Shown here one piece after another: positions 13,781 to 33,662 of a DNA stretch of 64,000 bases (the stretch's first letter is position 1; the number at the start of each line of letters is the position of its first letter). The stretch is from Paenibacillus sp. RUD330 (GTDB lineage: Bacteria; Bacillota; Bacilli; Paenibacillales; Paenibacillaceae). The notes below the pieces were generated by a model. The model saw only the letters and a program-made list of their open reading frames with translations, had not been told where the DNA came from and did no database searches. The stretch lies in assembly GCF_002243345.2 (NCBI RefSeq), contig NZ_CP022655.2, positions 2,544,501 through 2,608,500 on the forward strand. The letters are read 5' to 3'. A program made the position numbers and the translations under genes.

Positions 13781-14404
13781 TCAGTGAAGATTGCGGAACA
13801 ATCCGATAACCTTGCCGAGAATCGTCACATTCTTGAGCCGGATCGGCTCCATGGAGGCGTTCTCGGGCTGAAGCCGGATATGGTCGCGTTCCTTGTAGAA
13901 TGTCTTGACGGTCGCTTCGTCATCTTCCGTCATGGCCACGACGATATCGCCGTTGCTGGCGGAAGGCTGCTGGCGGACGATGACGTAATCGCCATTATGT
14001 ATGCCCGCCTCGATCATGCTCTCCCCGACGACACTCAGCATGAACACCTCGTGGTCGCCGACATAATCAGCCGGCAAAGGGAAGTACTCCTCGATGTTCT
14101 CGGTCGCCATGATCGGCACTCCGGCCGTCACCTTGCCGACGACGGGAACGCGGCTGATCGAGACGGGGAAGGGCAGCATGGCGGCATCGTCGCCGTCGAG
14201 GATCTCGATGGCGCGCGGCTTGGTAGGGTCGCGGCGGATCAGGCCCTTCTTCTCCAGGCGGTCCAGATGGCCATGCACCGTGGAGCTGGATGCCAGGCCT
14301 ACCGCCTCGCCGATCTCACGTACTGAAGGTGGATAGCCTTTGTCCCGGACTTCGTTCTTGATGAAGTCAAGAATGGCCTGCTGGCGGTTGGACACTTTAG
14401 ACAT
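13781..14404 (-). CDS. lexA: SOS repressor LexA
   Basis: Repressor of the DNA-damage regulon, 207 aa, inactivated by RecA-stimulated self-cleavage. The N-terminal winged helix recognises the operator ([21 protein letters not shown], residues 27-47). The cleavage bond is Ala94-Gly95 in KVTAGVP, and the catalytic dyad is Ser129 (VVGESM) and Lys167 (EATVKTF). The start ATG 14404 is fixed by homology (MSKVSNRQQ). It is autoregulated by two LexA boxes over its own promoter and divergent from a yneA-like gene, as in Bacillus. Confidence 0.97.
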
Positions 14405-14452: not shown

Positions 14453-14481
14453 AGTATAGCACAGAACCCGAGTTCGTACAA
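14453..14481 (-). promoter_or_regulatory. lexA promoter
   Basis: Minus strand TTGTAC (14481-14476), a 17-base spacer and TATACT (14458-14453). A LexA box (14463-14476) fills the spacer and another (14479-14492) covers the -35. Confidence 0.7.
14463..14476. promoter_or_regulatory. LexA box 1
   Basis: AGAACCCGAGTTCG matches CGAAC-N4-GTTCG at 9 of 10 conserved positions. It lies inside the lexA promoter spacer. Confidence 0.75.
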
Positions 14482-14492
14482 ACATAAGTTCG
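14479..14492. promoter_or_regulatory. LexA box 2
   Basis: CAAACATAAGTTCG matches CGAAC-N4-GTTCG at 9 of 10 positions. It overlaps the lexA -35. Confidence 0.75.
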
Positions 14493-14527
14493 AGAAACAG
14501 CCGTTCGCATAGGGCGGGTGCGTTCTG

Positions 14528-14541
14528 CGAACATACGTTCC
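14528..14541. promoter_or_regulatory. LexA box 3
   Basis: CGAACATACGTTCC matches at 9 of 10 positions. It lies just upstream of the yneA-like -35. Confidence 0.8.
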
Positions 14542-14550
14542 AAATAAGCG

Positions 14551-14579
14551 TTGACCAAAACAAATGTTCGTGTTATTCT
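14551..14579 (+). promoter_or_regulatory. Promoter of the yneA-like gene with LexA box 4
   Basis: TTGACC (14551-14556), a 17-base spacer, TATTCT (14574-14579). The spacer contains AAAACAAATGTTCG (14557-14570), which matches the LexA box at 8 of 10 positions. Confidence 0.7.
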
Positions 14580-14586
14580 GTGAATA

Positions 14587-14600
14587 AGAACAAACGTTTG
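14587..14600. promoter_or_regulatory. LexA box 5
   Basis: AGAACAAACGTTTG matches the LexA consensus at 8 of 10 positions. It sits between the yneA-like promoter and its ribosome site. Confidence 0.55.
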
Positions 14601-14614
14601 GGGAGTGAACGGTC

Positions 14615-15079
14615 ATGATGACTTTATCTGGATACAGCACGCCGGAGCGCGGCTCTGAGGCAACGGTCCGCAGGCAAGAGAAGAAGCAGGAACATATTTA
14701 TCTCAAGGAATGCTTCCGTCCCGGAGCAGGCGCCGGCGACTCCAGATTCATCACCCGTTCCTCCTCCGTCTCGGCAAGGACAGCCGGAAGCAGCCGTCCG
14801 CGCCGAATGCTTCCTTATGCAGCGGCAGCGCTCCTGTTCCTTCTGGCCTTCTCCAGCTTCTGGGGATTTTCCGGAGCGAGCTCATCTCACATCACCCCCG
14901 CAGCGGAAGGCGAGCTTACCATTACGGTGACGAGCGGAGACACGCTCTGGTCCATCGCCGGGAATTCCGGCCTCTCCAACGACATCCGGCGCAGCGTCTT
15001 CATGATCAAGGAGCGCAACGGGCTGAAGGATTCCGATCTGCAGGCGGGACAGACCTTGATCATTCCCAAGCAATCTTGA
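14615..15079 (+). CDS. yneA: YneA-like SOS cell-division inhibitor (LysM protein)
   Basis: A 154-aa protein with a cytoplasmic arm (1-64), one membrane span (about 66-87) and a C-terminal extracytoplasmic LysM domain (about 101-152: ITVTSGDTLWSIAG ... DLQAGQTLIIP). In Bacillus, YneA transiently blocks division during the SOS response and LysM is needed for activity. Position divergent from lexA, three LexA boxes upstream and the domain layout support the name. The N-terminal arm is longer than that of Bacillus YneA. ATG 14615 follows GGGGAG at 14600-14605. Confidence 0.8.
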   Translation: MMTLSGYSTPERGSEATVRRQEKKQEHIYLKECFRPGAGAGDSRFITRSSSVSARTAGSSRPRRMLPYAAAALLFLLAFSSFWGFSGASSSHITPAAEGELTITVTSGDTLWSIAGNSGLSNDIRRSVFMIKERNGLKDSDLQAGQTLIIPKQS

Positions 15080-22216: not shown

Positions 22217-23173
22217 ATGGAACTGACGTTATTGGGAACCGGCGCCGGCAGGCCCTCGCGCCTGCGCAACGTGACCTCCGTTGCCCTGACGCTTCCGCAG
22301 CCGCGCTGCTCGGTGTGGCTGTTCGACTGCGGAGAGGCGACCCAGCATCAGCTGATGCGCACTCCGCTCAAGATGAGCAAGGTCGAAGCCGTGTTCATCA
22401 CTCATATGCACGGGGATCATGTCAACGGCTTGCCCGGACTGCTCAGCAGCCGCTCCTACCACCCCGGGGCAGGCAAGCTCCGTCTGTTCGGACCGGAAGG
22501 AATCCGCGAGTATGTGCAGGCCGTCTTCCGGCTGACAGCCTCGCATCTGGACTATGAGCTCGAGATCACCGAGCTGGCGCCCGGCGTCGTCTACGAGGAT
22601 GAGCTGTATGCCGTCGAAGCGGACAGGCTGGATCATCGGGTGGCGAGCTGGGGGTACCGGATCGTCGAGAAGGACAAGCCCGGCGCCCTCGACTCCGCCA
22701 AGGCGCGCTCGTTAGGCGTCCCGTTCGGCCCTCAGCTCGGGCTGCTCAAGCAAGGAAAGGACATCACGCTCGACGACGGACGCGTCATCCGCAGCGGCGA
22801 CGTGCTTGGACCTGCATTGCCGGGGCGGATCGTCACCGTCCTCGGCGATACGGTTCCTTGCCCGGCGATATCACGCCTGGCCAAGAATGCGGATCTGCTT
22901 GTCCACGAGGCGACGTTTGAAGGGGCGATGGCGGACAAAGCGAAGGCGTACGGGCATTCCACGACGCTCCAGGCGGCCGCCGCCGCAGCCGAAGCGGGCG
23001 CGCGCAGGCTGGTCATGACGCATTTCAGCAGCCGCTACCGCGACGAGGACATGCCGGCGCTGGTCGCCGAGGCGCGCGGCATCTTTGCGGAATCCTACGC
23101 GGGAGCCGACCTTCTGACCGTCCCTATTCCCAGACAGGGTGAAGACGAGCCGGAGGGCTCCTGCTGGATTTGA
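22217..23173 (+). CDS. rnz: Ribonuclease Z
   Basis: A 318-aa metallo-beta-lactamase-fold endonuclease that trims tRNA 3' ends. Zinc motif II is FITHMHGDHVNGLPG. Further ligands are in LGDTVPC, HEATFE and MTHFSSRYR, and the substrate region includes LGTGAGRPSRLRNVTS. GGGGGAG lies ten bases before ATG 22217. Co-transcription with metH is likely. No clear terminator follows; a hairpin near 23226-23259 lacks a good T tract. Confidence 0.93.
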   Translation: MELTLLGTGAGRPSRLRNVTSVALTLPQPRCSVWLFDCGEATQHQLMRTPLKMSKVEAVFITHMHGDHVNGLPGLLSSRSYHPGAGKLRLFGPEGIREYVQAVFRLTASHLDYELEITELAPGVVYEDELYAVEADRLDHRVASWGYRIVEKDKPGALDSAKARSLGVPFGPQLGLLKQGKDITLDDGRVIRSGDVLGPALPGRIVTVLGDTVPCPAISRLAKNADLLVHEATFEGAMADKAKAYGHSTTLQAAAAAAEAGARRLVMTHFSSRYRDEDMPALVAEARGIFAESYAGADLLTVPIPRQGEDEPEGSCWI

Positions 23174-23583
23174 GCCGGAGGGCGGCAGCACTGCCGCGAT
23201 GAGCTTATCTATAGAGTTCCAAGAACGGCCATTTTCCGTATCGGCGGGAAATGGCTGTTTGCCTTGCGGCGGCTCACCTGCCCCTGTGAAGGAGGGGAAT
23301 GCCGCAGTGCTGTTCTTGCCGGGCGGGATCCGGACCGCCAGCGGAAGCAGGCGGCTGGGATCAAGCGGGATCGAGACGTTCCGGCGCAGGCGCGCTGCGG
23401 AAGGCTGTCGAGACGCAGCATCAACAGGCATGGATGGTTCTGCGGGAAGCGGAAATCGAGTCTGCATTTGTCGATATTAATAATTTATGCAATTAAATAT
23501 AAATGATGCGAAAGGTATGGAGCGCGGAAAGACGCTCGAAGCTCTCGCCTCTCTCGGAAACTCTTTCTATTGTTCTGGCAAAA
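23174..23583. other. Gap between rnz and mrfA without a convincing gene
   Basis: About 410 bases. It holds an inverted repeat near 23226-23259 (GGCCATTTTCCG with CGGGAAATGGCT), several short overlapping frames without family resemblance, and an AT-rich island at 23470-23510 unlike its surroundings. I see no gene I can support. Confidence 0.5.
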
Positions 23584-23597
23584 CGAACAGATATTCG
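23584..23597. promoter_or_regulatory. LexA-type box at the mrfA promoter
   Basis: CGAACAGATATTCG matches CGAAC-N4-GTTCG at 9 of 10 conserved positions. It lies directly upstream of a -10-like TAAAAT (23599-23604), the same arrangement as in the yneA-like promoter. Confidence 0.65.
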
Positions 23598-23628
23598 CTA
23601 AAATGTCACTAGAAGAGGTGACGGCATC

Positions 23629-25878
23629 ATGATGAAAAAGAAAACTCTTTCCGAGCTGATCCAGGAGCTGCGCGGAAATGAACATATAGCCAATTGGCAT
23701 GAAATCGAGCCGCAGGAGGCGCGGACCCGGCCGATGCCCGAGAGCGTCGACCCGCGGATCGAGGACGCCCTCGGCAAGCGGGGCATCGCGGAGCTGTACA
23801 CTCATCAGAGCAGCGCGTACGAGACAGTCCGCAAAGGGGAAAATGTCGTCGCGGTGACGCCTACCGCCTCGGGCAAGACGCTTTGCTACAATCTGCCCGT
23901 GCTGCAGGAGATCGCGGACGACGATTCCAGCCGGGCGCTGTATCTGTTCCCGACCAAAGCTCTCGCTCAGGACCAGAAGAGCGAGCTGAACGAAATCATC
24001 CGGGAAATGGGCATCGACATTAAAAGCTATACGTACGACGGAGACACTTCCCCTGCGATCCGGCAGCTCGTGCGCAAGGCCGGGCATATCGTCATCACCA
24101 ACCCGGATATGCTCCATTCCGCCATCCTTCCCCATCATACGAAGTGGGTCAGCCTGTTCGAGAACCTGAAATTCATCGTCATCGACGAGCTGCATACATA
24201 TCGCGGCGTATTCGGCAGCCATGTCGCCAACGTCATCCGGCGGCTGAAGCGGATATGCGCTTTTTACGGCAGCAATCCGGTGTTCATCTGCACGTCGGCG
24301 ACGATCGCGAATCCGCGGGAGCTCGCGGAGCATCTCACTGGAAGCCCGATGCGGCTGATCGACGACAACGGCGCTCCGAGGGGGCGGAAGCATTTCGTCT
24401 TCTACAACCCGCCTGTCGTCAACGAAGCGCTCAACATCAGGCGGAGCGCGACCGTCGAGGTCAACAACCTCGCCAAGGAATTCCTGAAGAACAAGATCCA
24501 GACGATCATCTTCGCCAGAAGCCGGGTCCGGGTCGAAATCATTCTGAGCCACATCCAGGAGCTCGTGAAAAAAGAGATCGGGCCGAAGTCGATCCGCGGC
24601 TATCGGGGCGGCTACCTGCCGAACCAGCGGCGCGAGATCGAGAAGGGGCTCCGCAGCGGCGATATTCTCGGCGTCGTCAGCACGAACGCGCTGGAGCTCG
24701 GCGTCGACATCGGACAGCTCCAGGTATGCGTCATGACGGGCTACCCCGGCAGCATCGCCAGCAGCTGGCAGCAGGCGGGACGGGCGGGACGGCGCCACGG
24801 GGAGTCGCTCATCGTCATGGTCGCCGGATCGACGCCGGTCGACCAGTACATGGTGCACAACCCCGACTACTTTTTCGAGCGGAGTCCTGAGGCGGCGCGG
24901 ATTAACCCGGAGAATCTGATCATCCTCGTCGATCACTTGAAGTGCGCGGCGTACGAGCTGCCCTTCAAGGAAAGCGAGGAGTACGGTCCGCTTGATGTCG
25001 GCGACATCATGGAGTATTTGGTCGAGGAGCGCGTCCTGCACAAAAACGCCGATACGTTCTACTGGGCGAACCAGTCGTTCCCTGCCAGCGGCATCAGCCT
25101 GCGCTCCGCTTCCCAGGAAAATGTCGTCATCGTCGACCAGTCCGACGTCGCGAACGTGCGCATCATCGGGGAGATGGACCGGTTCAGCGCCATGACGCTG
25201 CTGCACGACGAGGCGATCTACCTTCATGAGGGCGTCCAGTTCCAGGTGGAGAAGCTCGATTGGGACCACAAGAAAGCTTATGTGCGCGAAGTGGACGTGG
25301 AGTATTATACCGACGCCAATCTCGCCATCAACCTCAAGGTGCTGGAAATCGACAAGACGAAGGAGCGGCGGGCGGGCTCCCTGCACTTCGGAGATGTCAC
25401 CGTCAATGCCATTCCGACGATCTTCAAGAAGATCAAGATGTCGACCTTCGAGAATATCGGATCGGGGCCGATCCATCTTCCCGAGGAGGAGCTGCATACG
25501 TCATCGGCCTGGGTCGAGCTCAGGCAGGTCGACGACGACATCGGCGCCAAGACGCTGGAGCAGCTCCTGCTCGGCATCGCCCATGTGCTCAAGCATATCG
25601 TGCCCGTGCTGGCGATGTGCGACCGGAACGACATCCATGTCGTGCCGCAGATCAAGGCGGCGCATACGCAGCTGCCGACGATATTCGTCTATGACCACTA
25701 TCCGGGTGGCATCGGCTTGGCGGACGAGGTGTACAAGCGGTTCGACGAGGTTCGGGACGCGGCCCTGAACATGATTTCCGGCTGCCCGTGCAAGGACGGA
25801 TGCCCTTCCTGCATCGGCACGGAAATAGAGGGAAGCGACCTCAAGCGAAGGAGCATCCGGCTTCTGGAGCGGTTGTGA
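23629..25878 (+). CDS. mrfA: DEXH-box DNA helicase MrfA (YprA)
   Basis: An SF2 DNA helicase, 749 aa. In B. subtilis MrfA works with MrfB to repair mitomycin-C adducts independently of UvrABC. Motif I is TPTASGKT (about 78-85), motif II IVIDELHTYRG, motif III CTSATIANP, motif VI QQAGRAGRR. A C-terminal DUF1998-type region carries four cysteines in CPCKDGCPSC (about 719-728), a metal site characteristic of this family. ATG 23629 lies eight bases after GAGGTG. It heads an eight-gene run ending at 32057 and is preceded by a LexA-type box. Confidence 0.9.
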   Translation: MMKKKTLSELIQELRGNEHIANWHEIEPQEARTRPMPESVDPRIEDALGKRGIAELYTHQSSAYETVRKGENVVAVTPTASGKTLCYNLPVLQEIADDDSSRALYLFPTKALAQDQKSELNEIIREMGIDIKSYTYDGDTSPAIRQLVRKAGHIVITNPDMLHSAILPHHTKWVSLFENLKFIVIDELHTYRGVFGSHVANVIRRLKRICAFYGSNPVFICTSATIANPRELAEHLTGSPMRLIDDNGAPRGRKHFVFYNPPVVNEALNIRRSATVEVNNLAKEFLKNKIQTIIFARSRVRVEIILSHIQELVKKEIGPKSIRGYRGGYLPNQRREIEKGLRSGDILGVVSTNALELGVDIGQLQVCVMTGYPGSIASSWQQAGRAGRRHGESLIVMVAGSTPVDQYMVHNPDYFFERSPEAARINPENLIILVDHLKCAAYELPFKESEEYGPLDVGDIMEYLVEERVLHKNADTFYWANQSFPASGISLRSASQENVVIVDQSDVANVRIIGEMDRFSAMTLLHDEAIYLHEGVQFQVEKLDWDHKKAYVREVDVEYYTDANLAINLKVLEIDKTKERRAGSLHFGDVTVNAIPTIFKKIKMSTFENIGSGPIHLPEEELHTSSAWVELRQVDDDIGAKTLEQLLLGIAHVLKHIVPVLAMCDRNDIHVVPQIKAAHTQLPTIFVYDHYPGGIGLADEVYKRFDEVRDAALNMISGCPCKDGCPSCIGTEIEGSDLKRRSIRLLERL

Positions 25879-25918
25879 TACCTTATGGGATCGCCAGACA
25901 GAAGAGAGGAGGCGGCTC

Positions 25919-27262
25919 ATGAGCAGCCTGCGCGAGAAAATGAACCGGCTGAAAGGAATCAAGACCGCAGAGGCGGATCAAGCGGCCGGGTTTCCTGCCG
26001 CCGCTGAGCTTCCGGTGAAACAGCCGGTGCAGGACGCATCTCCATCCGAAGCGGCAGCGGGCGGGCTCGCCTCCGCCGGACCGGAATGGGACCGCCACGG
26101 CGTGAAGCTCGTCGCGAACGAAGCCGGCGATTGCCTGGAGAGGCGTCTCCTGCTGCCGCTCGGCCACCGCAGCGGGCATCATTCGCTCGCGGAGTGGGCG
26201 GGAACGGCCGGTCAGCTCGGCGCCTTCCATCCGGAGGCGGGCGAGGCGCCCCATGCCGGCAACGTCCTTTTCCTCGACCTGGAGACGACCGGCCTCGGGG
26301 CCGGGACGGGCAACGTCCCGTTCATGATGGGGCTGGCGTACTTCGAGGACGGAGCCTTCATCCTGCGTCAGTTCCTGATCCGCCATCCCGCCGAGGAGCG
26401 GGCGATGCTGCAGGAGCTGCTGCTCCTGCTGCCGCGCTTCCGCTGGCTCGGCACGTACAACGGGCGCTCCTTCGACTGGCCGCTCGTTCAATCCCGGTTC
26501 ATCATGAACGGCTTCCGCGGGACGCCTGAGCTGCTGCATCTGGATTTTCTCCACCCGTCGAGGAGCATATGGAAAAATACGCTTGTCTCCTGCAAGCTCA
26601 GCCATGTCGAAGAAGAGCGTCTCGGCATCTTCCGTGCGGACGATGTGCCGGGATCGCTGGCGCCGGCGCTCTATTTCCAATATTTGGCCGAAGGCGATCC
26701 CGATGTGCTGGAGGGCGTATTCCGCCATAACGAGCAGGATATGATCACCCTTGCCTGCCTGGGCATCCGCTTCGGCCATCTGCTCGCCGGGGCTGTCGGA
26801 GAGCGGATGCCGATGCCCGAGGAGAACGAGGAGCGGCTGCGCACCGGATTGTGGCTGGAGAAGATGGGGCGGACGGCTGACGCCGAGCGTCTTTTCGCCT
26901 TGGTGGAAGCCTCGGAGAAGCCGGCTCCATCGGCTTGGCATGCGCTGGCGATGAGGGAGAAGAAAACTGGCAATTGGGACCGGGCTGTGGTATTGTGGCA
27001 GAAAGCCGCCGCCTGCATGAGGACGGCGCTTATTCCGAACGTGGACGCCCATGTGGAGCTGGCCATGTTCTACGAGCACAAGCGCAAGGATGTCCACTCG
27101 GCTCTCGCCTATGCGGAGGAAGCGATCGAGCTGTTCGCGGGCAGGCCGCATGATTACCGCAGCGCCAAGCGGCGGGCCGAGCAGGAAGCCTTGCTCAAGC
27201 GGCGCGACAGGCTCCGCCGCAAATGCGGAGGGGGCGGCGCCATGCTGGAGGTTGACAGATGA
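25919..27262 (+). CDS. mrfB: RNase H-fold exonuclease MrfB (YprB)
   Basis: A 447-aa partner of MrfA. The DEDD-type nuclease fold is seen in VLFLDLETTGLG (about 117-128, two acidic metal ligands), GTYNGRSFDWPLVQSR and HNEQDMITL (last Asp). The C-terminal third is helical and TPR-like (ADAERLFALVEAS, SALAYAEEAIELFAG). The N-terminal 60 residues are low complexity. ATG 25919 follows GAGGAGGCGG. It begins 40 bases after mrfA and overlaps the next gene by ATGA, so all are co-translated. Confidence 0.88.
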   Translation: MSSLREKMNRLKGIKTAEADQAAGFPAAAELPVKQPVQDASPSEAAAGGLASAGPEWDRHGVKLVANEAGDCLERRLLLPLGHRSGHHSLAEWAGTAGQLGAFHPEAGEAPHAGNVLFLDLETTGLGAGTGNVPFMMGLAYFEDGAFILRQFLIRHPAEERAMLQELLLLLPRFRWLGTYNGRSFDWPLVQSRFIMNGFRGTPELLHLDFLHPSRSIWKNTLVSCKLSHVEEERLGIFRADDVPGSLAPALYFQYLAEGDPDVLEGVFRHNEQDMITLACLGIRFGHLLAGAVGERMPMPEENEERLRTGLWLEKMGRTADAERLFALVEASEKPAPSAWHALAMREKKTGNWDRAVVLWQKAAACMRTALIPNVDAHVELAMFYEHKRKDVHSALAYAEEAIELFAGRPHDYRSAKRRAEQEALLKRRDRLRRKCGGGGAMLEVDR

Positions 27263-28098
27263 CGAAGACATACAGCTTGCCGGGTATGCCGGCGCCGGAC
27301 CGGCCGATCGGCGGCCTCCTGCTCGACCTCGACGGAACGATCTATCGGGGCGGGCAGGCTGTCGATGGGGCCGGTTCTCTTGTGAGGGCGCTTCGCGATG
27401 CCGGAGTTCCCTACAAATATGTGACGAACAACTCCTCCTCCAGTCCCGAAGCCGTCGCGAAGAGGCTGCGGGATATGGGCGTGGATGCGGAAGCGGATGA
27501 AGTATGCACTTCTTCCCAGGCGGCAGCGCGGTATGCGGCCGAGCGCTTTCCGGGCGGCAAGGTATTTCTGATCGGCGAGGAAGGCTTGGCGGAAGAGCTG
27601 GAGCAAGCGGGCCTGGTGCTGGTCGAACGGGATGCCGATCTCGTCGTCCAGGGCATCGACCGCGCCTTCTCCTACGCCAAGGCTTCCGAGGCGGTGAGAG
27701 AGCTGCTGGCGGGAGCGGAATACATCCTGACGAATCCCGATCTGCTGCTGCCTTCCCATGGAGGCCTCTTTCCGGGGGCGGGCTCCATCGGGGCGATGCT
27801 GGCCGCCGCTTCGGGAGTGAAGCCTGTCGTCATCGGCAAGCCGGAGAAGATCCTGATGGATTATTCGCTGGAGAGGATCGGTCTGGCGGCTGGCGAGGTG
27901 TCGGTCGTCGGCGACAACCTGGCGACCGACATCGCCGCGGGCAAGAAGAGCGGCTGCGGCACCATTCTTGTGCTGACGGGACTGACGACCCCGGACAATT
28001 ACGCCCGCTACGCGGAAGCGGCGGATGCCGAGCCCGATGCCGTCTGCGGCTCGCTCGCCGATTTGCAATCGTATATATTGAAGTACATAGGGCGATAA
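27259..28098 (+). CDS. HAD-IIA sugar-phosphatase-like hydrolase (NagD/YutF type)
   Basis: A 279-aa HAD class IIA phosphatase. Motif I is LLLDLDGTIYRGG (about 20-32), motif II YVTNNSSSSPEAVAKRL, motif III the lysine in VVIGKPEKIL, motif IV VGDNLATDIAAGKKSG. Relatives dephosphorylate nucleotides and sugar phosphates; the substrate here is unknown. ATGA overlap with mrfB places it firmly in the repair operon, where a house-cleaning or damaged-nucleotide role is conceivable but unproven. Confidence 0.85.
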   Translation: MTKTYSLPGMPAPDRPIGGLLLDLDGTIYRGGQAVDGAGSLVRALRDAGVPYKYVTNNSSSSPEAVAKRLRDMGVDAEADEVCTSSQAAARYAAERFPGGKVFLIGEEGLAEELEQAGLVLVERDADLVVQGIDRAFSYAKASEAVRELLAGAEYILTNPDLLLPSHGGLFPGAGSIGAMLAAASGVKPVVIGKPEKILMDYSLERIGLAAGEVSVVGDNLATDIAAGKKSGCGTILVLTGLTTPDNYARYAEAADAEPDAVCGSLADLQSYILKYIGR

Positions 28099-28132
28099 AA
28101 AGAACAACACGAGGGAAAGGAAGCGAGACTTC

Positions 28133-28951
28133 ATGCCGGAATATCCTGAAATGGACCACTATCGGATGCTGCTGGGCGCTTCCGTCGCCGGACAGCGGAT
28201 CCGCAAAGTCGCCGTCGAGCGGGAAAAGTCGGTCAATCTGCCGGCCGGCGAGTTCGTCTCCCGGCTGGAGGGCCGTACGATCTGGTTCGTCGAGCGGCGC
28301 GGAAAGCATTTGATCTTTCATTTGGACAACGGAGAAAGGCTGCTCCTGCATCTCATGCTGGGAGGCTGGATGTTCTACGGCTCCGAGGAGGAGCGGCCCG
28401 ACAGAACCGTTCAGGTCCAATTGGACCTCGACAGCGGCAACCTGTATTTCATCGGTCTGAGGCTCGGCTACCTGCATCTGCTCTCCGCCAAGGAAACCGA
28501 AGGGAAGCTTGCCGCGCTCGGTCCCGAGCCCTTCGATCCGAGACTGACGCTCGCCGCTTTCACCGCCAGGCTCCAGGCCAAGAAGCGGAGCGCCTTGAAG
28601 ACGGTGCTGGTGGACCAGAGCGTCATCGCCGGCATCGGCAACTGCTATTCCGACGAAATCGCCTGGGAAGCGAAGCTGCGCCCGGACGCCAAGCTCGGCG
28701 GGCTGAGCGAGGAGTCCTTCTCGCGGCTGTACGACGCGATGCATTCCATGCTGCTGGAGGCGCGCACCCGAGGCGGCTACATGGAGCATCCGTTCCAGAC
28801 CGGCGACGAGGCGACAGGCGGCTATAACGACGATTGCAAAGTCTACGACCGTCCGGGCGGCGAATGCTGCCGCTGCGGCGGGACGATCGAGCAGCATGAA
28901 ATGTCTTCGCGCAAAGTATTCTTTTGTCCGGAATGCCAGAAGGAATCCTGA
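28133..28951 (+). CDS. Fpg/Nei-family DNA glycosylase
   Basis: A 272-aa base-excision repair glycosylase/AP lyase. The N-terminal catalytic Pro2-Glu3 is present in MPEYPEMD; the usual form is MPELPEVE. The beta-clamp lysine is in RGKHLIFHL, the helix-two-turn-helix in VIAGIGNCYSDEIAWEAKLRP, and a C-terminal zinc finger has CCRCGG and FFCPEC. It removes oxidised purines or pyrimidines; the N-terminal variation leaves open whether it is MutM-like or Nei-like. It lies four bases before endonuclease IV, the enzyme acting next in the pathway. Confidence 0.87.
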   Translation: MPEYPEMDHYRMLLGASVAGQRIRKVAVEREKSVNLPAGEFVSRLEGRTIWFVERRGKHLIFHLDNGERLLLHLMLGGWMFYGSEEERPDRTVQVQLDLDSGNLYFIGLRLGYLHLLSAKETEGKLAALGPEPFDPRLTLAAFTARLQAKKRSALKTVLVDQSVIAGIGNCYSDEIAWEAKLRPDAKLGGLSEESFSRLYDAMHSMLLEARTRGGYMEHPFQTGDEATGGYNDDCKVYDRPGGECCRCGGTIEQHEMSSRKVFFCPECQKES

Positions 28952-28954
28952 GCC

Positions 28955-29794
28955 ATGCCAGACAACCGGATCGGCTGCCATCTCAGTACTAGAGGCGGTT
29001 ATCGGGCCGCGGCGGAAAGGGCTTCGGCCCTCGGCTGCGGCTCTTTTCAATACTTCCCGAAAAATCCGCGCAGTCTCGGCGTCAAAGCCTTCGATCGCCG
29101 CGACGCCCAGCGCTGCAAGGAATGGTGTCGGGAGCATGGACTGTCGTCCATCGCCCATTCCCCGTATCCGAACAACCTGGCTTCGGAGGATGCCTCCGTC
29201 CGCGATCGGACAGCCGAATCGCTGCTCAACGATCTCGACATCGCGGAGGCATGCGGATCGCTTGGCGTCGTCGTCCATTTCGGCATCTACAAAGGCTCGG
29301 ATCCGCTGGAAGGCTATCGGCTGATGATCGGTACGCTGGATGATATCACTAGCCGCTGGGACGGAAAATGCAAGCTGCTCATCGAGAATCAAGCCGGCAA
29401 TCACGGCTTCATGGGCATGACGCTGGAGGAGCTGGCGCAAGTGCGCTCGCTCTGCCGCGAGCCCGCCAAGATCGCCTTCTGCCTCGACAGCTGCCATCTG
29501 TTCGCCAGCGGAATTTGGAAAGGCGATCCCGGCGCGCAGTGGCATGCCGACGCGGAGAAGGCCGGCAGCCTGGAGCCTATCGCCGCCCTTCATTTCAACG
29601 ACTCCGCATACGGCAGCGGCTCGCGGCGCGACCGTCATGCCCGGCTGGGCGAAGGCGTTGTAGGGGAAGCCGGACTCCGCTGGCTGCTTGAAGCGCTTCC
29701 CGGCATTCCTGCCGTCCTGGAGACGGCTTCCGGCGCAGACGGAACGCACCGGGAGCAGCTGCACATCATGAAGTCATGGGAGGAACGGACTTGA
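28955..29794 (+). CDS. nfo: Endonuclease IV (AP endonuclease)
   Basis: Cleaves abasic sites in base-excision repair, 279 aa, TIM barrel with a three-zinc centre. Ligand-bearing segments appear in order: GCHLSTRGG, IAHSPYPNN, VVHFGIYKG, LLIENQAG, FCLDSCHLFASG, LHFNDS, RDRHARLGEG and VLETASG. This is the normal length for Nfo. It sits between the Fpg/Nei gene and a small receiver-domain gene, which overlaps its last four bases (TTGA). Confidence 0.92.
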   Translation: MPDNRIGCHLSTRGGYRAAAERASALGCGSFQYFPKNPRSLGVKAFDRRDAQRCKEWCREHGLSSIAHSPYPNNLASEDASVRDRTAESLLNDLDIAEACGSLGVVVHFGIYKGSDPLEGYRLMIGTLDDITSRWDGKCKLLIENQAGNHGFMGMTLEELAQVRSLCREPAKIAFCLDSCHLFASGIWKGDPGAQWHADAEKAGSLEPIAALHFNDSAYGSGSRRDRHARLGEGVVGEAGLRWLLEALPGIPAVLETASGADGTHREQLHIMKSWEERT

Positions 29795-30162
29795 TCCATG
29801 TCTATCTAGATGATTTCCGCCGTTGTCCGGAAGGCTTCGTCCATGCCCGGAATGCGGAGGAGTGCATCGCCCTCATCGCTTCCGAGGACATCGGCATCCT
29901 CTCCCTGGATTTCGATCTCGGCTGGGGCCAGCCTACGGGACTCGAGGTTGCCCGCCACATCGCGGAGAGCGGCCGTTATCCGCAGGAAACCTATCTGCAT
30001 TCATCCAGTACGGAAGGCAGGCAGATGATGTACAAGCTCCTGTCGGACTCGCTTCCGGCAGGAAGCCGTCTTTCCTACGCCTCCATGCCGGAAGAGACGC
30101 TTGCCAGAGCGGCAGGCGGCGGAGCGGCCGATGCCGCATCAATTCAAGAGAAGAACGGGTGA
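29791..30162 (+). CDS. Cyclic-phosphate-processing receiver-domain protein
   Basis: A 123-aa single-domain protein resembling the cyclic-phosphate processing receiver (cPRD-type) family predicted to act on cyclic phosphodiesters such as RNA ends or cyclic nucleotides. Features: IHVYLDDFRRCPEGFVHARN at the N-terminus, LSLDFDLG with the acidic pair, and YLHSSSTEGRQMM. The start is TTG 29791, six bases after GGAGG, overlapping nfo by TTGA; an ATG at 29776 would need a poor ribosome site. No DNA-binding output domain is attached. Confidence 0.7.
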   Translation: MIHVYLDDFRRCPEGFVHARNAEECIALIASEDIGILSLDFDLGWGQPTGLEVARHIAESGRYPQETYLHSSSTEGRQMMYKLLSDSLPAGSRLSYASMPEETLARAAGGGAADAASIQEKNG

Positions 30163-30167
30163 GCAGC

Positions 30168-30956
30168 ATGGCAATCATATCCTTGCATCATTTGAGGCTG
30201 CAGCGGGAAGAACGAGAAATTCTGCAGGACATAAGCCTGACCGTACAGCCGGGCGAGCAGTGGGTCGTGCTGGGCCGCAACGGCTCCGGCAAAACGACGC
30301 TTCTCGAAATGCTGACGGGTTATATGTTCCCGACATCCGGAACGGTCGAGGTGCTGGGCAACCGGTACGGAGAATGCGATGTCCGCGAGGTGCGCAAGAG
30401 AATCGGCTACATCAGCCAGTCGCTCGTGGAGAAGCTCGCTCTTGCCGACCCCGTATGGGAAGTGGTCGCTACCGGGGAGTATGCTTTTTTGCGCTTTTAT
30501 CAAGAGATCCCGGAAGAGGTGCAGGGCAAGGCGCTGAGGCTCCTTGAGGAGTGCGGGCTTCGCCATGCCGCCCTGCAGCCGTTCGGAACGCTGTCGCAGG
30601 GGGAGCGCAAGAAAGTGCTGCTCGCGCGAGCGCTCATGAGCGATCCGGCCATCCTGATCCTGGACGAGCCTTGCTCCGGGCTGGATCTGTACGAGCGCGA
30701 GAAGCTGCTGGCGGAGACAGGCAAGCTCGGAAGCCGCAGCATGACCGTCATTTATGTCACGCATCATATGGAGGAAATCATGCCAATGTTCACTCATGTG
30801 GCCTTGCTGCAGGACGGAAGGCTGATCGCATCCGGACCCAAGAAGGAAGTGTTGACGGAACGCGTGCTCGGCGATGCCTATGAGCTTCCGTTGGCGGTGG
30901 AATGGGCCCATGGCAGGCCTTGGATCAAAGTAGGAACGGATGGTGCGGCAGGTTGA
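30168..30956 (+). CDS. ABC transporter ATP-binding protein, no permease nearby
   Basis: A 262-aa ABC ATPase resembling Bacillus YlmA. Walker A is LGRNGSGKTTLLEML (about 35-49), the signature is LSQGERKKVLLARAL, Walker B AILILDEPCSGLD, the H-loop VTHHMEEI. No membrane partner or substrate-binding gene lies within the window. ATG 30168 follows the receiver-domain gene by five bases; the open frame further upstream is antisense-like read-through and is not used. The next gene overlaps its stop (TTGA). Its role in a repair operon is unexplained. Confidence 0.82.
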   Translation: MAIISLHHLRLQREEREILQDISLTVQPGEQWVVLGRNGSGKTTLLEMLTGYMFPTSGTVEVLGNRYGECDVREVRKRIGYISQSLVEKLALADPVWEVVATGEYAFLRFYQEIPEEVQGKALRLLEECGLRHAALQPFGTLSQGERKKVLLARALMSDPAILILDEPCSGLDLYEREKLLAETGKLGSRSMTVIYVTHHMEEIMPMFTHVALLQDGRLIASGPKKEVLTERVLGDAYELPLAVEWAHGRPWIKVGTDGAAG

Positions 30957-31969
30957 GTCAGTGGATCGGAACGGCGAATAAAAGTTATGCATCCTATGCG
31001 ATGGAAGAGCTTCGCAGGCAATTCGAAGGCATCTCCATCACGCAGCTTTCCCCTGGGGAAGCTTTTCTGTTCGAAGTGCCGCTTGAGCAAGAGGCGGTGC
31101 TGGCGTCCATCAAGGCGGAGCAGCCGATTTTCCTGAGGCATCTGCAGCCCGTGGACGCGGTTCGGTCGATCTCGGCCGATGCGGATGACCTGGACTGGCT
31201 CAGCGACTGGATCCGGCTCTCCCGCGGCAAGCTCGAGGGCAAGCGCGCGGGCGTCCACGTACGCAAAGCGGAAGGAAGCCCTTATCCCTATTCTGCGGCC
31301 GATACAAAAGCCGTCGCGGCCGCGATGCTGGAGCAGTGCGGAGCTGAGCCGGAACAGAAGCACACCGAGATTCTAGTCGCGGTATATGCATCCCGGGATA
31401 CGCTGTATGCCGGCATCGGAACGCCTGCCGAGATGCTGTCCGATTGGCCGGGTGGAGCGGTGCGCTTCCAGAAGGAGGAAGGCCAGATCTCCAGGGCCAA
31501 GTTCAAGCTGCTGGAGGCGGAAAGAGAGTTCGGGCTCGATTATGCCTCCTTCCGGAACGCGGTCGACATCGGCGCGGCTCCGGGAGGGTGGACGTCGCTC
31601 CTGCTGGAGCGCGGGCTGCGGGTGACCGCTATCGATCCCGCCGAGCTCCATCCGTCGCTGCTGGCTTACCGGACGTTGACCGTGCTCCGCAAAAACGCGG
31701 CCGAAGTGAGCTTCCAGCCTGGCGCTTTCGACCTGCTCGTCTGCGATATGAGCTGGAGCCCGATGCAGATGACGAAGCTCGTCCTCGATCTCGTTCCGGC
31801 TCTGCAACAGGGCGGGACGGCGATCGTGACGGTCAAGCTGATGCACCGCAAGCCGCTGCAGACGATCCGGGAAGTGAAGAGCCGCCTGTCCGCCGCTTTC
31901 GACATTCTCGGCGCCAGGCAGCTGTTCCACAACAGGGAGGAAATGACCCTGTATTTGAAGAAGAAATAA
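30953..31969 (+). CDS. RlmM/RrmJ-like SAM-dependent 2'-O-methyltransferase
   Basis: A 338-aa methyltransferase with an N-terminal THUMP/RAGNYA-like half and a C-terminal RrmJ fold, the layout of E. coli RlmM (23S rRNA C2498 ribose methylation). The SAM site is VDIGAAPGGWTSLLLERG with AIDPAEL. A K-D-K-E tetrad is plausible: K in KFKLLE, D in VCDMSW, K in VTVKL, E in EEMTLYL. The start is TTG 30953, overlapping the ABC gene stop by four bases. It is the last gene before the terminator at 32006-32057. The RNA target is inferred. Confidence 0.75.
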   Translation: MSQWIGTANKSYASYAMEELRRQFEGISITQLSPGEAFLFEVPLEQEAVLASIKAEQPIFLRHLQPVDAVRSISADADDLDWLSDWIRLSRGKLEGKRAGVHVRKAEGSPYPYSAADTKAVAAAMLEQCGAEPEQKHTEILVAVYASRDTLYAGIGTPAEMLSDWPGGAVRFQKEEGQISRAKFKLLEAEREFGLDYASFRNAVDIGAAPGGWTSLLLERGLRVTAIDPAELHPSLLAYRTLTVLRKNAAEVSFQPGAFDLLVCDMSWSPMQMTKLVLDLVPALQQGGTAIVTVKLMHRKPLQTIREVKSRLSAAFDILGARQLFHNREEMTLYLKKK

Positions 31970-32005
31970 CCGATCAATTTATGCGAAGCGGCAGCGGGAA
32001 AGCAT

Positions 32006-32057
32006 CCCGGCTATGCGCAGGCTCTCTTTGGAGAGGCTGCGCCATAGCCGGGTTTTT
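32006..32057 (+). terminator. Large terminator closing the mrfA operon
   Basis: The arms CCCGGCTATG and CATAGCCGGG, with inner matched blocks GCAG/CTGC and CTCTC/GAGAG, form a stem over 18 bp. It is followed by TTTTT. Confidence 0.93.
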
Positions 32058-32093
32058 GCATTCCAGGCTGCCTAGCGAGGGAGGCGGAGCGGT

Positions 32094-33662
32094 ATGGAAG
32101 AGGATACGGCCGATATTCATCCGCATGGGGAGAGCTTGGCTGCTGGCAGCCTGGTCGGCGGCCGGTACAGGGTGGCGGCGCAAATCGGACGCGGGGGGAT
32201 GAGCCGAGTGTACGCCGTGGAGGATATCCGGCTGAACCATAAATTACGGGCATTGAAAATAAATGCGGCCAACCATGCTGCGCTGACGGCGGAGGAAGCC
32301 TTCATGCTCATGCGGCTCGAGCACCCCCACCTGCCTCAGCTGCTGGATTATTATCCTCCGGGCTCGGGTTCCGCAGAAATACTCGTCATGGACTATATCG
32401 ACGGCCAGACGCTCCAGCAAGCGGTCCATGCCCGGGGCAGAGGGCTGGAGCCCCATGAAACGGCGGCGATATCGCTGCAGCTGTGCTCGGCGCTGTCGTA
32501 TTTGCACCGCCAGCAGCCGCCGGTCATCCACCGGGACTTGAAGCCGTCCAACGTCATGATCGACAGGGAGGGGCGGGTCAGGCTCATCGACTTCGGCATC
32601 GCTCGCAGCTACAAGCCGGGCAGCCGATCCGACACGCGCCGTCTGGGAACGCCGGGTTTTGCGGCTCCGGAGCAGGAATCGGGAGGGCAGAGCGATTCCC
32701 GTACCGACATATACGGACTTGGAAGTCTCATTCGTTGGCTGATGCTGGGCGGCGAGTCTCCCGATGGACTCCACGCGGAGAGCGCAGGGGAAAGGCTGCC
32801 TCCATGGCTCTTGCACATGCTGGAGCGGCGGCCGGAAGACCGGCTGCCGTCCATGGAGGAGGCGGCCAGGGAGATCCGGTCTTGGGCCGACAGCGCCGGC
32901 GCGGGCTCGGCCGATAAGGGCAGGGCATCGGCGTTCGGCCTTACCGGAGGCGCTTTGTCCGGAACCGTATCGGTGCTGTCTCTCTCGCCGGGCAGCGGAG
33001 CGACGTTTTTGAGCTTGATGCTTGCGCGGCATTTGGAGGAGACGGGCCTGCCGTTCCAGCTGATCGAGGCTCCCGGGGGAGAGCCGGAATACTGCGCCTT
33101 GATCGGAAGCCCGGCGCTGCCGACTGCCCCGGACGGGCCCGACTCTCGCTACCGGCGTCTCGGAGGCGTCCGCGCATCGTGGCAGGTGCTTCATCCCGAG
33201 CCTGCGCCCGCCGCCGCCGACCAGGATGCGCGTTTCCGCCTGATGGCTTCCGGAGGCGGGGAGGGCGCCGTCATCGTCGACTGGTCGTCCCGCTGGCATG
33301 AGGCCGCCCTGGCGGAAGAGTGGGCTTCCGGTTCCGGGCTGCTCGTCGTCTGCGCGGATCCCAACCCCGCACGGTGGAGCCAAGCAAGGATCGCCGGCCT
33401 GAACCGGCTGCTGCGGATAAGGGAAGCTGCCGGGCTCCGTACGGTGTGGGCGGCATGCAAGGACGCTCCCTTTCCGGAAAGGTCCGAATGGCTGGCGCTG
33501 CTTCCGGAAAAGCCAGCCATCGTAATCCCTTATTTGGAGCCGTCCGAATGGTACGCGCTGCTCTGGAGAGGGATGCCGCTGCCGCGAAAGGGGAAATCGG
33601 CCGCTGCGCTCCGCCAGGCGCTGGCGGCTTTGGCGGCCATGCTTCCGGGTTTGAAGACCTAA
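32094..33662 (+). CDS. Ser/Thr protein kinase fused to a degenerate ParA-like domain
   Basis: A 522-aa cytosolic protein. The kinase domain (about 25-265) has the glycine loop IGRGGMSRVY, Lys55 in ALKIN, catalytic HRDLKPSN (146-153), DFG at 166-168 and APE at 191-193, so it should be active. Residues 288-520 look like a SIMIBI/ParA-type fold: the strand TVSVLSLSPGSGATFLSLML carries a P-loop position, but the Walker lysine is replaced (GSGATF), followed by GAVIVDWSS and LLVVCADPNPARW. There are no membrane spans or PASTA repeats. GGGAGG precedes ATG 32094. Targets are unknown. Confidence 0.8.
   Translation: MEEDTADIHPHGESLAAGSLVGGRYRVAAQIGRGGMSRVYAVEDIRLNHKLRALKINAANHAALTAEEAFMLMRLEHPHLPQLLDYYPPGSGSAEILVMDYIDGQTLQQAVHARGRGLEPHETAAISLQLCSALSYLHRQQPPVIHRDLKPSNVMIDREGRVRLIDFGIARSYKPGSRSDTRRLGTPGFAAPEQESGGQSDSRTDIYGLGSLIRWLMLGGESPDGLHAESAGERLPPWLLHMLERRPEDRLPSMEEAAREIRSWADSAGAGSADKGRASAFGLTGGALSGTVSVLSLSPGSGATFLSLMLARHLEETGLPFQLIEAPGGEPEYCALIGSPALPTAPDGPDSRYRRLGGVRASWQVLHPEPAPAAADQDARFRLMASGGGEGAVIVDWSSRWHEAALAEEWASGSGLLVVCADPNPARWSQARIAGLNRLLRIREAAGLRTVWAACKDAPFPERSEWLALLPEKPAIVIPYLEPSEWYALLWRGMPLPRKGKSAAALRQALAALAAMLPGLKT

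Follow-up and report, generated by a model that had tools for sequence, protein, structure and literature searches.

The window analysed here is a 64,000-nucleotide stretch of the genome of Paenibacillus sp. RUD330, in which a run of eight genes opens with the helicase and exonuclease genes mrfA and mrfB and goes on to a set of base-excision genes. The reading that we favour, and judge somewhat likelier to be right than wrong, is that a LexA-repressed promoter drives mrfAB as a conserved target of the SOS response, and that the transcript here runs on into what is otherwise a separate block of Paenibacillales genes. It draws on the operator and its conservation, the order of the genes, catalytic residues that are intact, and the persistence of the block in species that lack both mrfAB and the box. 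LexA binding, a single transcript and each biochemical step discussed below are predictions. The elements in front of mrfA are these:

23575-23580, plus strand: -35-like CTGGCA, partner of the TAAAAT -10-like element.
23584..23597, plus strand: LexA-type operator CGAACAGATATTCG, matching 9 of 10 defined positions.
23599..23604, plus strand: -10-like TAAAAT, found by promoter scan, starting one base past the end of the operator.

The sequence-only reading had placed a 9/10 LexA box against a -10-like element upstream of mrfA, and there it is. Scanning with a sigma-70-type consensus only, the TAAAAT site (9 of 12 positions) is the sole plus-strand promoter-like match in 22500-33000, a region that holds four such matches on both strands together, against 2.1 +/- 1.4 in shuffles. 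Shuffling the mrfA upstream region reached 9/10 in 0 of 200 trials. The region upstream of recA in the same genome offers a companion, CGAATGTATGTTCG, also 9/10, whose deviation is the mirror image of that in the mrfA box and lies in the other half-site.

Certain counts nevertheless weigh against making much of the box. The LexA pattern is matched with no more than one mismatch at 246 sites of the genome (615 for the reversed pattern), so that a single 9/10 box is weak evidence alone, and an 8/10 site at a single locus, being matched in 5-29 of 200 shuffles, is not significant. The case for the box consequently rests on its conservation across relatives, for which the upstream regions of 81 mrfA genes were compared: that of the window and those of the 80 top-ranking loci out of 469 matches. 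Looking up to 250 base pairs (bp) from mrfA, the highest-scoring site reaches at least 8/10 in 78 of the 81, as against 10 of 81 reversed sequences. A stricter LexA core, [AG]AAC-N4-[AG]TTC, is present no more than 130 bp from mrfA in 72 of 81 loci but in only 2 of 81 reversed sequences, and the 72 sites comprise 31 distinct 14-mers. Two layouts are seen among the upstream regions printed: the box is directly 5' of the -10 element (the window, several Paenibacillus, Bacillus) or directly 3' of TATAAT (e.g. loci L058 and L074), and the order of operator and then TAAAAT or TAAACT recurs in Paenibacillus and Bacillus relatives. On the debit side, the 80 loci, being the best of 469, lean to one MrfA type and its close relatives, and the core is not within 130 bp in nine of the 81 (L009, L017, L044, L048, L064, L076, L078, L079 and L080). 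Fourteen further mrfA loci all have a site scoring at least 8/10 within 250 bp (a count with no reversed control), L141 only at -164; twelve of these loci are new and carry the second MrfA type, and all twelve are boxed. A chance match, with mrfA outside the SOS response, could appeal to the 246 genomic sites, but these conservation tests disfavour it: the box stands at the promoter in 72 of 81 loci, and twelve additional loci have one, which makes this reading very improbable indeed. A promoter-overlapping palindrome conserved in relatives is the mark of the LexA (SOS) regulon, and on the strength of such comparisons we regard LexA control of mrfA as well supported.

After the box, eight plus-strand open reading frames follow almost without gaps to 31969, and a terminator closes the run:

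23629..25878, plus strand: mrfA, superfamily 2 (SF2) helicase with the MrfA zinc-binding domain, 749 amino acids (Pfam DEAD, Helicase_C, WHD_HRQ1 and MZB).
25919..27262, plus strand: mrfB, DnaQ-type exonuclease (Pfam RNase_H_2; a TPR match is under its cut-off).
27259..28098, plus strand: HAD-IIA phosphatase, YutF-like, overlapping the mrfB stop by 4 bases.
28133..28951, plus strand: second Fpg/Nei-family glycosylase, with P2, E3, K58, N170, the zinc cysteines, and HLMLGG and GLRLGY motifs.
28955..29794, plus strand: second endonuclease IV (Nfo), TIGR00587 153.9 bits (cut-off 129.65).
29791 (TTG) or 29776 (ATG)..30162, plus strand: cREC receiver-like protein (PF20274).
30168..30956, plus strand: ABC-type ATPase (PF00005), none of the eight genes encoding a partner permease.
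30902..31969, plus strand: RlmM-like FtsJ-fold methyltransferase (PF01728; NF008734 98 bits, cut-off 176).
32006..32052, plus strand: intrinsic terminator, a hairpin with a T run, closing the run.

The intergenic gaps are, in order, 40, -4, 34, 3, -4, 5 and -55, taking cREC from TTG 29791 and the ABC gene from ATG 30168 (the nfo-cREC overlap becomes -19 if cREC starts at ATG 29776). The TTG is the likelier start, with GGAGG 7 bases 5' of it and a TTGA overlap with the nfo stop. The nearly gapless run thus agrees with the sequence-only reading, apart from the last overlap, which is 55 bases rather than 4. The single large terminator is likewise as proposed, the stretch 31985-32065 folding at -48.8 kcal/mol (z -6.0). 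That there is no internal terminator is a fair statement, since the five plus-strand terminator-like hairpins before 31969 all lie within genes, but it is not proven; on both strands there are 11 such hairpins, against 7.5 +/- 2.8 in shuffles. From the spacing, a single transcript over the eight genes is plausible. One of the hairpins, at 31044-31063 in the 5' part of the RlmM-like gene and followed by a T run, is possibly an attenuator, possibly chance.

The standing block of the Paenibacillales is HAD-Fpg/Nei-Nfo-cREC-(ABC)-RlmM, in which the nei-nfo gap is at most 60 bases in 51 of 51 loci. About 180 of 198 Paenibacillales genomes have an operon-type Fpg/Nei with a score far higher than that of MutM (scores read by eye, as also below); the remaining 18 have none or a MutM-level score only, G151 being borderline. 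MrfA is found in 116 of the 198, one genome with only a 35% relative being left uncounted. Wherever coordinates of both are listed, Fpg/Nei lies 1.4-8.0 kilobases (kb) downstream of mrfA on the same strand in 83 of 85 genomes; of the two exceptions, one has Fpg/Nei just upstream of mrfA (L145) and the other has the two genes on different contigs. The block follows mrfAB in 59 of 60 Paenibacillales mrfA loci, the sixtieth being cut by a contig end, and in none of 20 Bacillaceae loci, which hold mrfAB only. The claim that base-excision genes and the mitomycin pair are normally separate therefore holds for Bacillaceae and for the most part fails for Paenibacillales, where they usually adjoin. MrfA also occurs without the block, since 10 of the 116 MrfA genomes have a MutM-level Fpg/Nei only (again by eye).

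The converse is seen too. All 26 mrfAB-less loci that were compared keep the block behind rnz; none of them lacks HAD, Fpg/Nei or nfo, and cREC was detected in 22. There is no site of at least 8/10 in the 300 bp upstream in 25 of them, the one site being at -192, and the reversed control gives 8 of 26. These loci do not support the idea that LexA control belongs to the base-excision block; because the block is kept where mrfAB and, in all but one locus, the box are missing, such control seems to go with mrfAB, and the genes for base excision would then be SOS-inducible, if at all, probably by read-through. The arrangement in related genomes suggests assigning the box to the first two genes, with the base-repair genes a separate block downstream. 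On the reading that we favour, DNA damage would lead to RecA-stimulated cleavage of LexA and so free the mrfA promoter; MrfA would unwind adducted strands and MrfB degrade them; and the transcript would read on into the HAD, second Fpg/Nei, second endonuclease IV, cREC, ABC ATPase and RlmM-like genes. Fpg/Nei would take out a damaged base, its lyase leaving a blocked end for the neighbouring Nfo to trim.

How much of the transcript reaches the block is another matter. LexA might govern mrfAB only, with the block from HAD onward expressed from a constitutive promoter of its own and the shared transcript negligible. The block must use another promoter in the 26 mrfAB-less loci, 25 of them boxless, and mrfB is separated from the block by more than 300 bases, and up to 5.1 kb, in 11 of 59 loci. 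It also counts against read-through that block promoters may lie inside mrfB or HAD. But the mrfB and HAD genes of the window share 4 bases (an overlap of exactly 4 between mrfB and the next block gene is seen in 14 of 59 loci), and the scan, within its sigma-70-type limits, finds no plus-strand promoter-like site inside the run. We consider this account possible but somewhat doubtful.

The opposite extreme, that all eight genes constitute one dedicated and selected SOS pathway for adducts and oxidised bases, was the proposal of the sequence-only reading. Tight spacing, a single promoter-terminator pair and the adjacency of mrfA and Fpg/Nei in all but two of the 85 compared genomes are what one would expect of it. 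It is unlikely all the same, for the block stays where mrfAB is missing, boxless in 25 of 26 loci, and MrfA occurs in ten genomes without the operon-type Fpg/Nei. The eight-gene set is, moreover, not fixed: of the 59 loci, 22 have no HAD, 8 no nfo and 18 no ABC. As a conserved arrangement, one coordinated SOS response is not supported by these comparisons, including the 11 loci in which mrfB and the block stand apart.

MrfA identity is bimodal in Paenibacillales, 78-100% in 34 genomes and 60-65% in the other 82, and both types occur within Paenibacillus, the window's own genus. Bacillaceae MrfA is 77-83% identical, yet the accompanying MrfB is only 29-35% identical, a pattern that suggests repeated replacement of mrfA in place. 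The window's MrfA is 98% identical to that of L001; the host is very near P. humicus.

The Fpg/Nei protein of the run has the N-terminal domain, H2TH, P2/E3/K and zinc finger of the Fpg/Nei glycosylase/AP (apurinic/apyrimidinic) lyase family. It is not a canonical Fpg: MutM is a separate gene in the same genome, 32% identical to it, and on the curated Fpg scores the operon protein reaches 195.8 bits against 212 and 182.7 against 203.3. Comparison of 97 distinct proteins from 100 loci indicates a distinct subfamily. Unlike Fpg, 84 of 86 proline-bearing operon proteins have HLMLGG in place of HLRMEG, RMEG being found in none, and 77 of 86 have GLRLGY at the R-x-FG loop. We take these two loop positions to be those that hold the base-probing M77 and F114 in Fpg; the titles of structures 4g4n and 4g4q name M77A and F114A.

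The catalytic proline is kept in 86 of the 88 Fpg/Nei proteins with nfo adjoining and lost in all nine without; the two that lack it despite an adjoining nfo are from Cohnella (L012, L031). HLMLGG and GLRLGY are missing as well from all 11 proteins without the proline. The nine nfo-less loci cannot be counted as independent events, since they group together as a single clade in the nei tree (support 1.0) and in the metH tree (0.724). This reduces the association of nfo with Pro2 to one event, not nine, and the clade is itself broken up in the rlmM tree, with ten other tips inside; both points weigh against the association as support for the favoured reading. Loss of the proline would then have occurred once in the nfo-less clade and once in Cohnella. 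A joint loss of nfo and Pro2 would make sense, because the lyase would make the ends that Nfo trims.

Nor is the proline-less protein likely to be a plain pseudogene. The ratio of nonsynonymous to synonymous substitution rates (dN/dS) was calculated for 28 pairs inside the clade and 13 others; dS is saturated in many, and L070/L073 is the only proline-less pair with dS < 1. Its Fpg/Nei dN/dS is 0.165, as compared with 0.023-0.068 for three neighbour genes of the same pair and 0.034-0.114 for Fpg/Nei in six other pairs with dS < 1. Selection is still purifying but looser. According to PMC11323726, Pro2 of mycobacterial Nei2 is essential for AP lyase and not for 5-hydroxyuracil glycosylase activity, and the lyase is dispensable for crosslink repair; a proline-less Fpg/Nei, by this precedent, need not be dead. 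The nfo gene is also not lost genome-wide from every member of the clade: an operon-type Nfo is encoded elsewhere in three of the eight genomes of nfo-less loci that were searched (the genome of L153 falling outside the search). In L088 and L090 the relocated gene stands between those for Ku and an ATP-dependent DNA ligase, and L088 has a carbon-nitrogen hydrolase open reading frame there too.

The coming and going of nfo bears on the HAD protein as well, which could be a 2-phosphoglycolate phosphatase clearing the product of Nfo trimming of 3'-phosphoglycolate ends. The gene adjoins those for Fpg/Nei and Nfo, and its product matches the 2-phosphoglycolate phosphatase family NF053752 with E 2.1e-56, if at only 191 bits against a cut-off of 475. 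But the 8 nfo-less loci of the first set retain HAD, 22 loci with both Fpg/Nei and nfo are without it, and the nearest solved relative is YutF (3pdw, E 1.9e-86). Since HAD and nfo come and go separately, we think this role quite unlikely.

With regard to known systems, the first two genes are those of a YprA-type helicase with MZB beside a DnaQ-type exonuclease, as in MrfAB (YprAB) of Bacillus subtilis. The helicase scores 1445 bits to the solved YprA 6znp over residues 2-748 (and 675 bits to TIGR03817, under the cut-off of 874), mrfB directly follows mrfA in 79 of 80 loci, the remaining one being cut by a contig end, and many Bacillus loci have a related upstream site, CAAACAAATATTCG. The difference from Bacillaceae is the block itself. 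Passages of PMC11194089 and PMC12458937 identify MrfAB as a mitomycin repair pair; in the titles, abstract openings and passages covered by our literature search there is no statement for or against its regulation by LexA. Nor is this gene cluster described in the titles and abstract openings searched, a coverage outside which most subscription journals fall. Within the same literature the nearest arrangement in print is mycobacterial lhr-nei2, presented in PMC11323726 as a damage-inducible operon of a 3'-5' SF2 helicase and an Fpg/Nei-family enzyme that confers crosslink resistance. The likeness is one of pairing: Lhr belongs to another helicase family, and lhr-nei2 is under PafBC and is described as an enzyme pair. 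The operon studied here is not of the lhr-nei2 type, its helicase being MrfA and its Fpg/Nei scoring 97 bits with the Nei2 model NF040775 (cut-off 400); a profile of the operon Fpg/Nei gives Nei2 (8TJG) 81.6 bits and an Fpg 199.4.

A bolder proposal is that the Paenibacillales have a LexA-induced route for the repair of adducts or crosslinks. The partners of MrfAB would be a new Fpg/Nei subfamily, in which HLMLGG and GLRLGY take the place of the Fpg probing loops, and the endonuclease IV that goes with it. The route would be a counterpart of lhr-nei2 that arose independently, and its glycosylase would have become, in two lineages, a proline-less DNA-binding scaffold. This is speculative and rather doubtful. 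Three questions become directly testable: does mrfAB belong to the SOS response in Bacillales, does the order-wide second Fpg/Nei-Nfo pair act on a lesion of its own, and does an Fpg/Nei protein without its catalytic proline still serve a purpose? Species without mrfAB offer a natural control, in which the glycosylase block can be studied apart from repair by helicase and exonuclease.

As to the other proteins of the run, Nfo is a second copy (another is encoded elsewhere in the genome) and an endonuclease IV by family score, although it does not reach the thresholds set for four deoxyribonuclease IV equivalog models. Its H68, H108, E144, D178, H181, H213, D226, H228 and E256 are invariant in 12 sequences and are presumably the nine metal ligands of endonuclease IV. 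The RlmM-like protein, short of its equivalog cut-off, is not assigned as RlmM; K202, D282, K312 and E347 are invariant in 13 sequences and, if they are the K-D-K-E 2'-O-methyltransferase tetrad, as we assume, it may work like such an enzyme. The cREC protein has a curated PF20274 score, a receiver-like fold and invariant acidic residues, like the cRec proteins of PMC7824862; structure comparison returned the receiver-like fold only and no function beyond that. The cRec proteins of that paper are described beside NAD (nicotinamide adenine dinucleotide) and RNA systems, and the terms 'Fpg' and 'endonuclease IV' are absent from its main text (the supplements lying outside the check).

Past the terminator comes a protein kinase gene (32094-33662), which in many relatives is listed next after rlmM. 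The window also contains the lexA gene (13781-14404, minus strand), with the Pfam domains LexA_DNA_bind and Peptidase_S24. Between it and a LysM-domain gene, at 14463-14600, six LexA-like boxes with at most two mismatches are packed into 138 bases.

14615-15079, plus strand: LysM-domain gene, opposite lexA across the box cluster, which we take by its position to be yneA-like.

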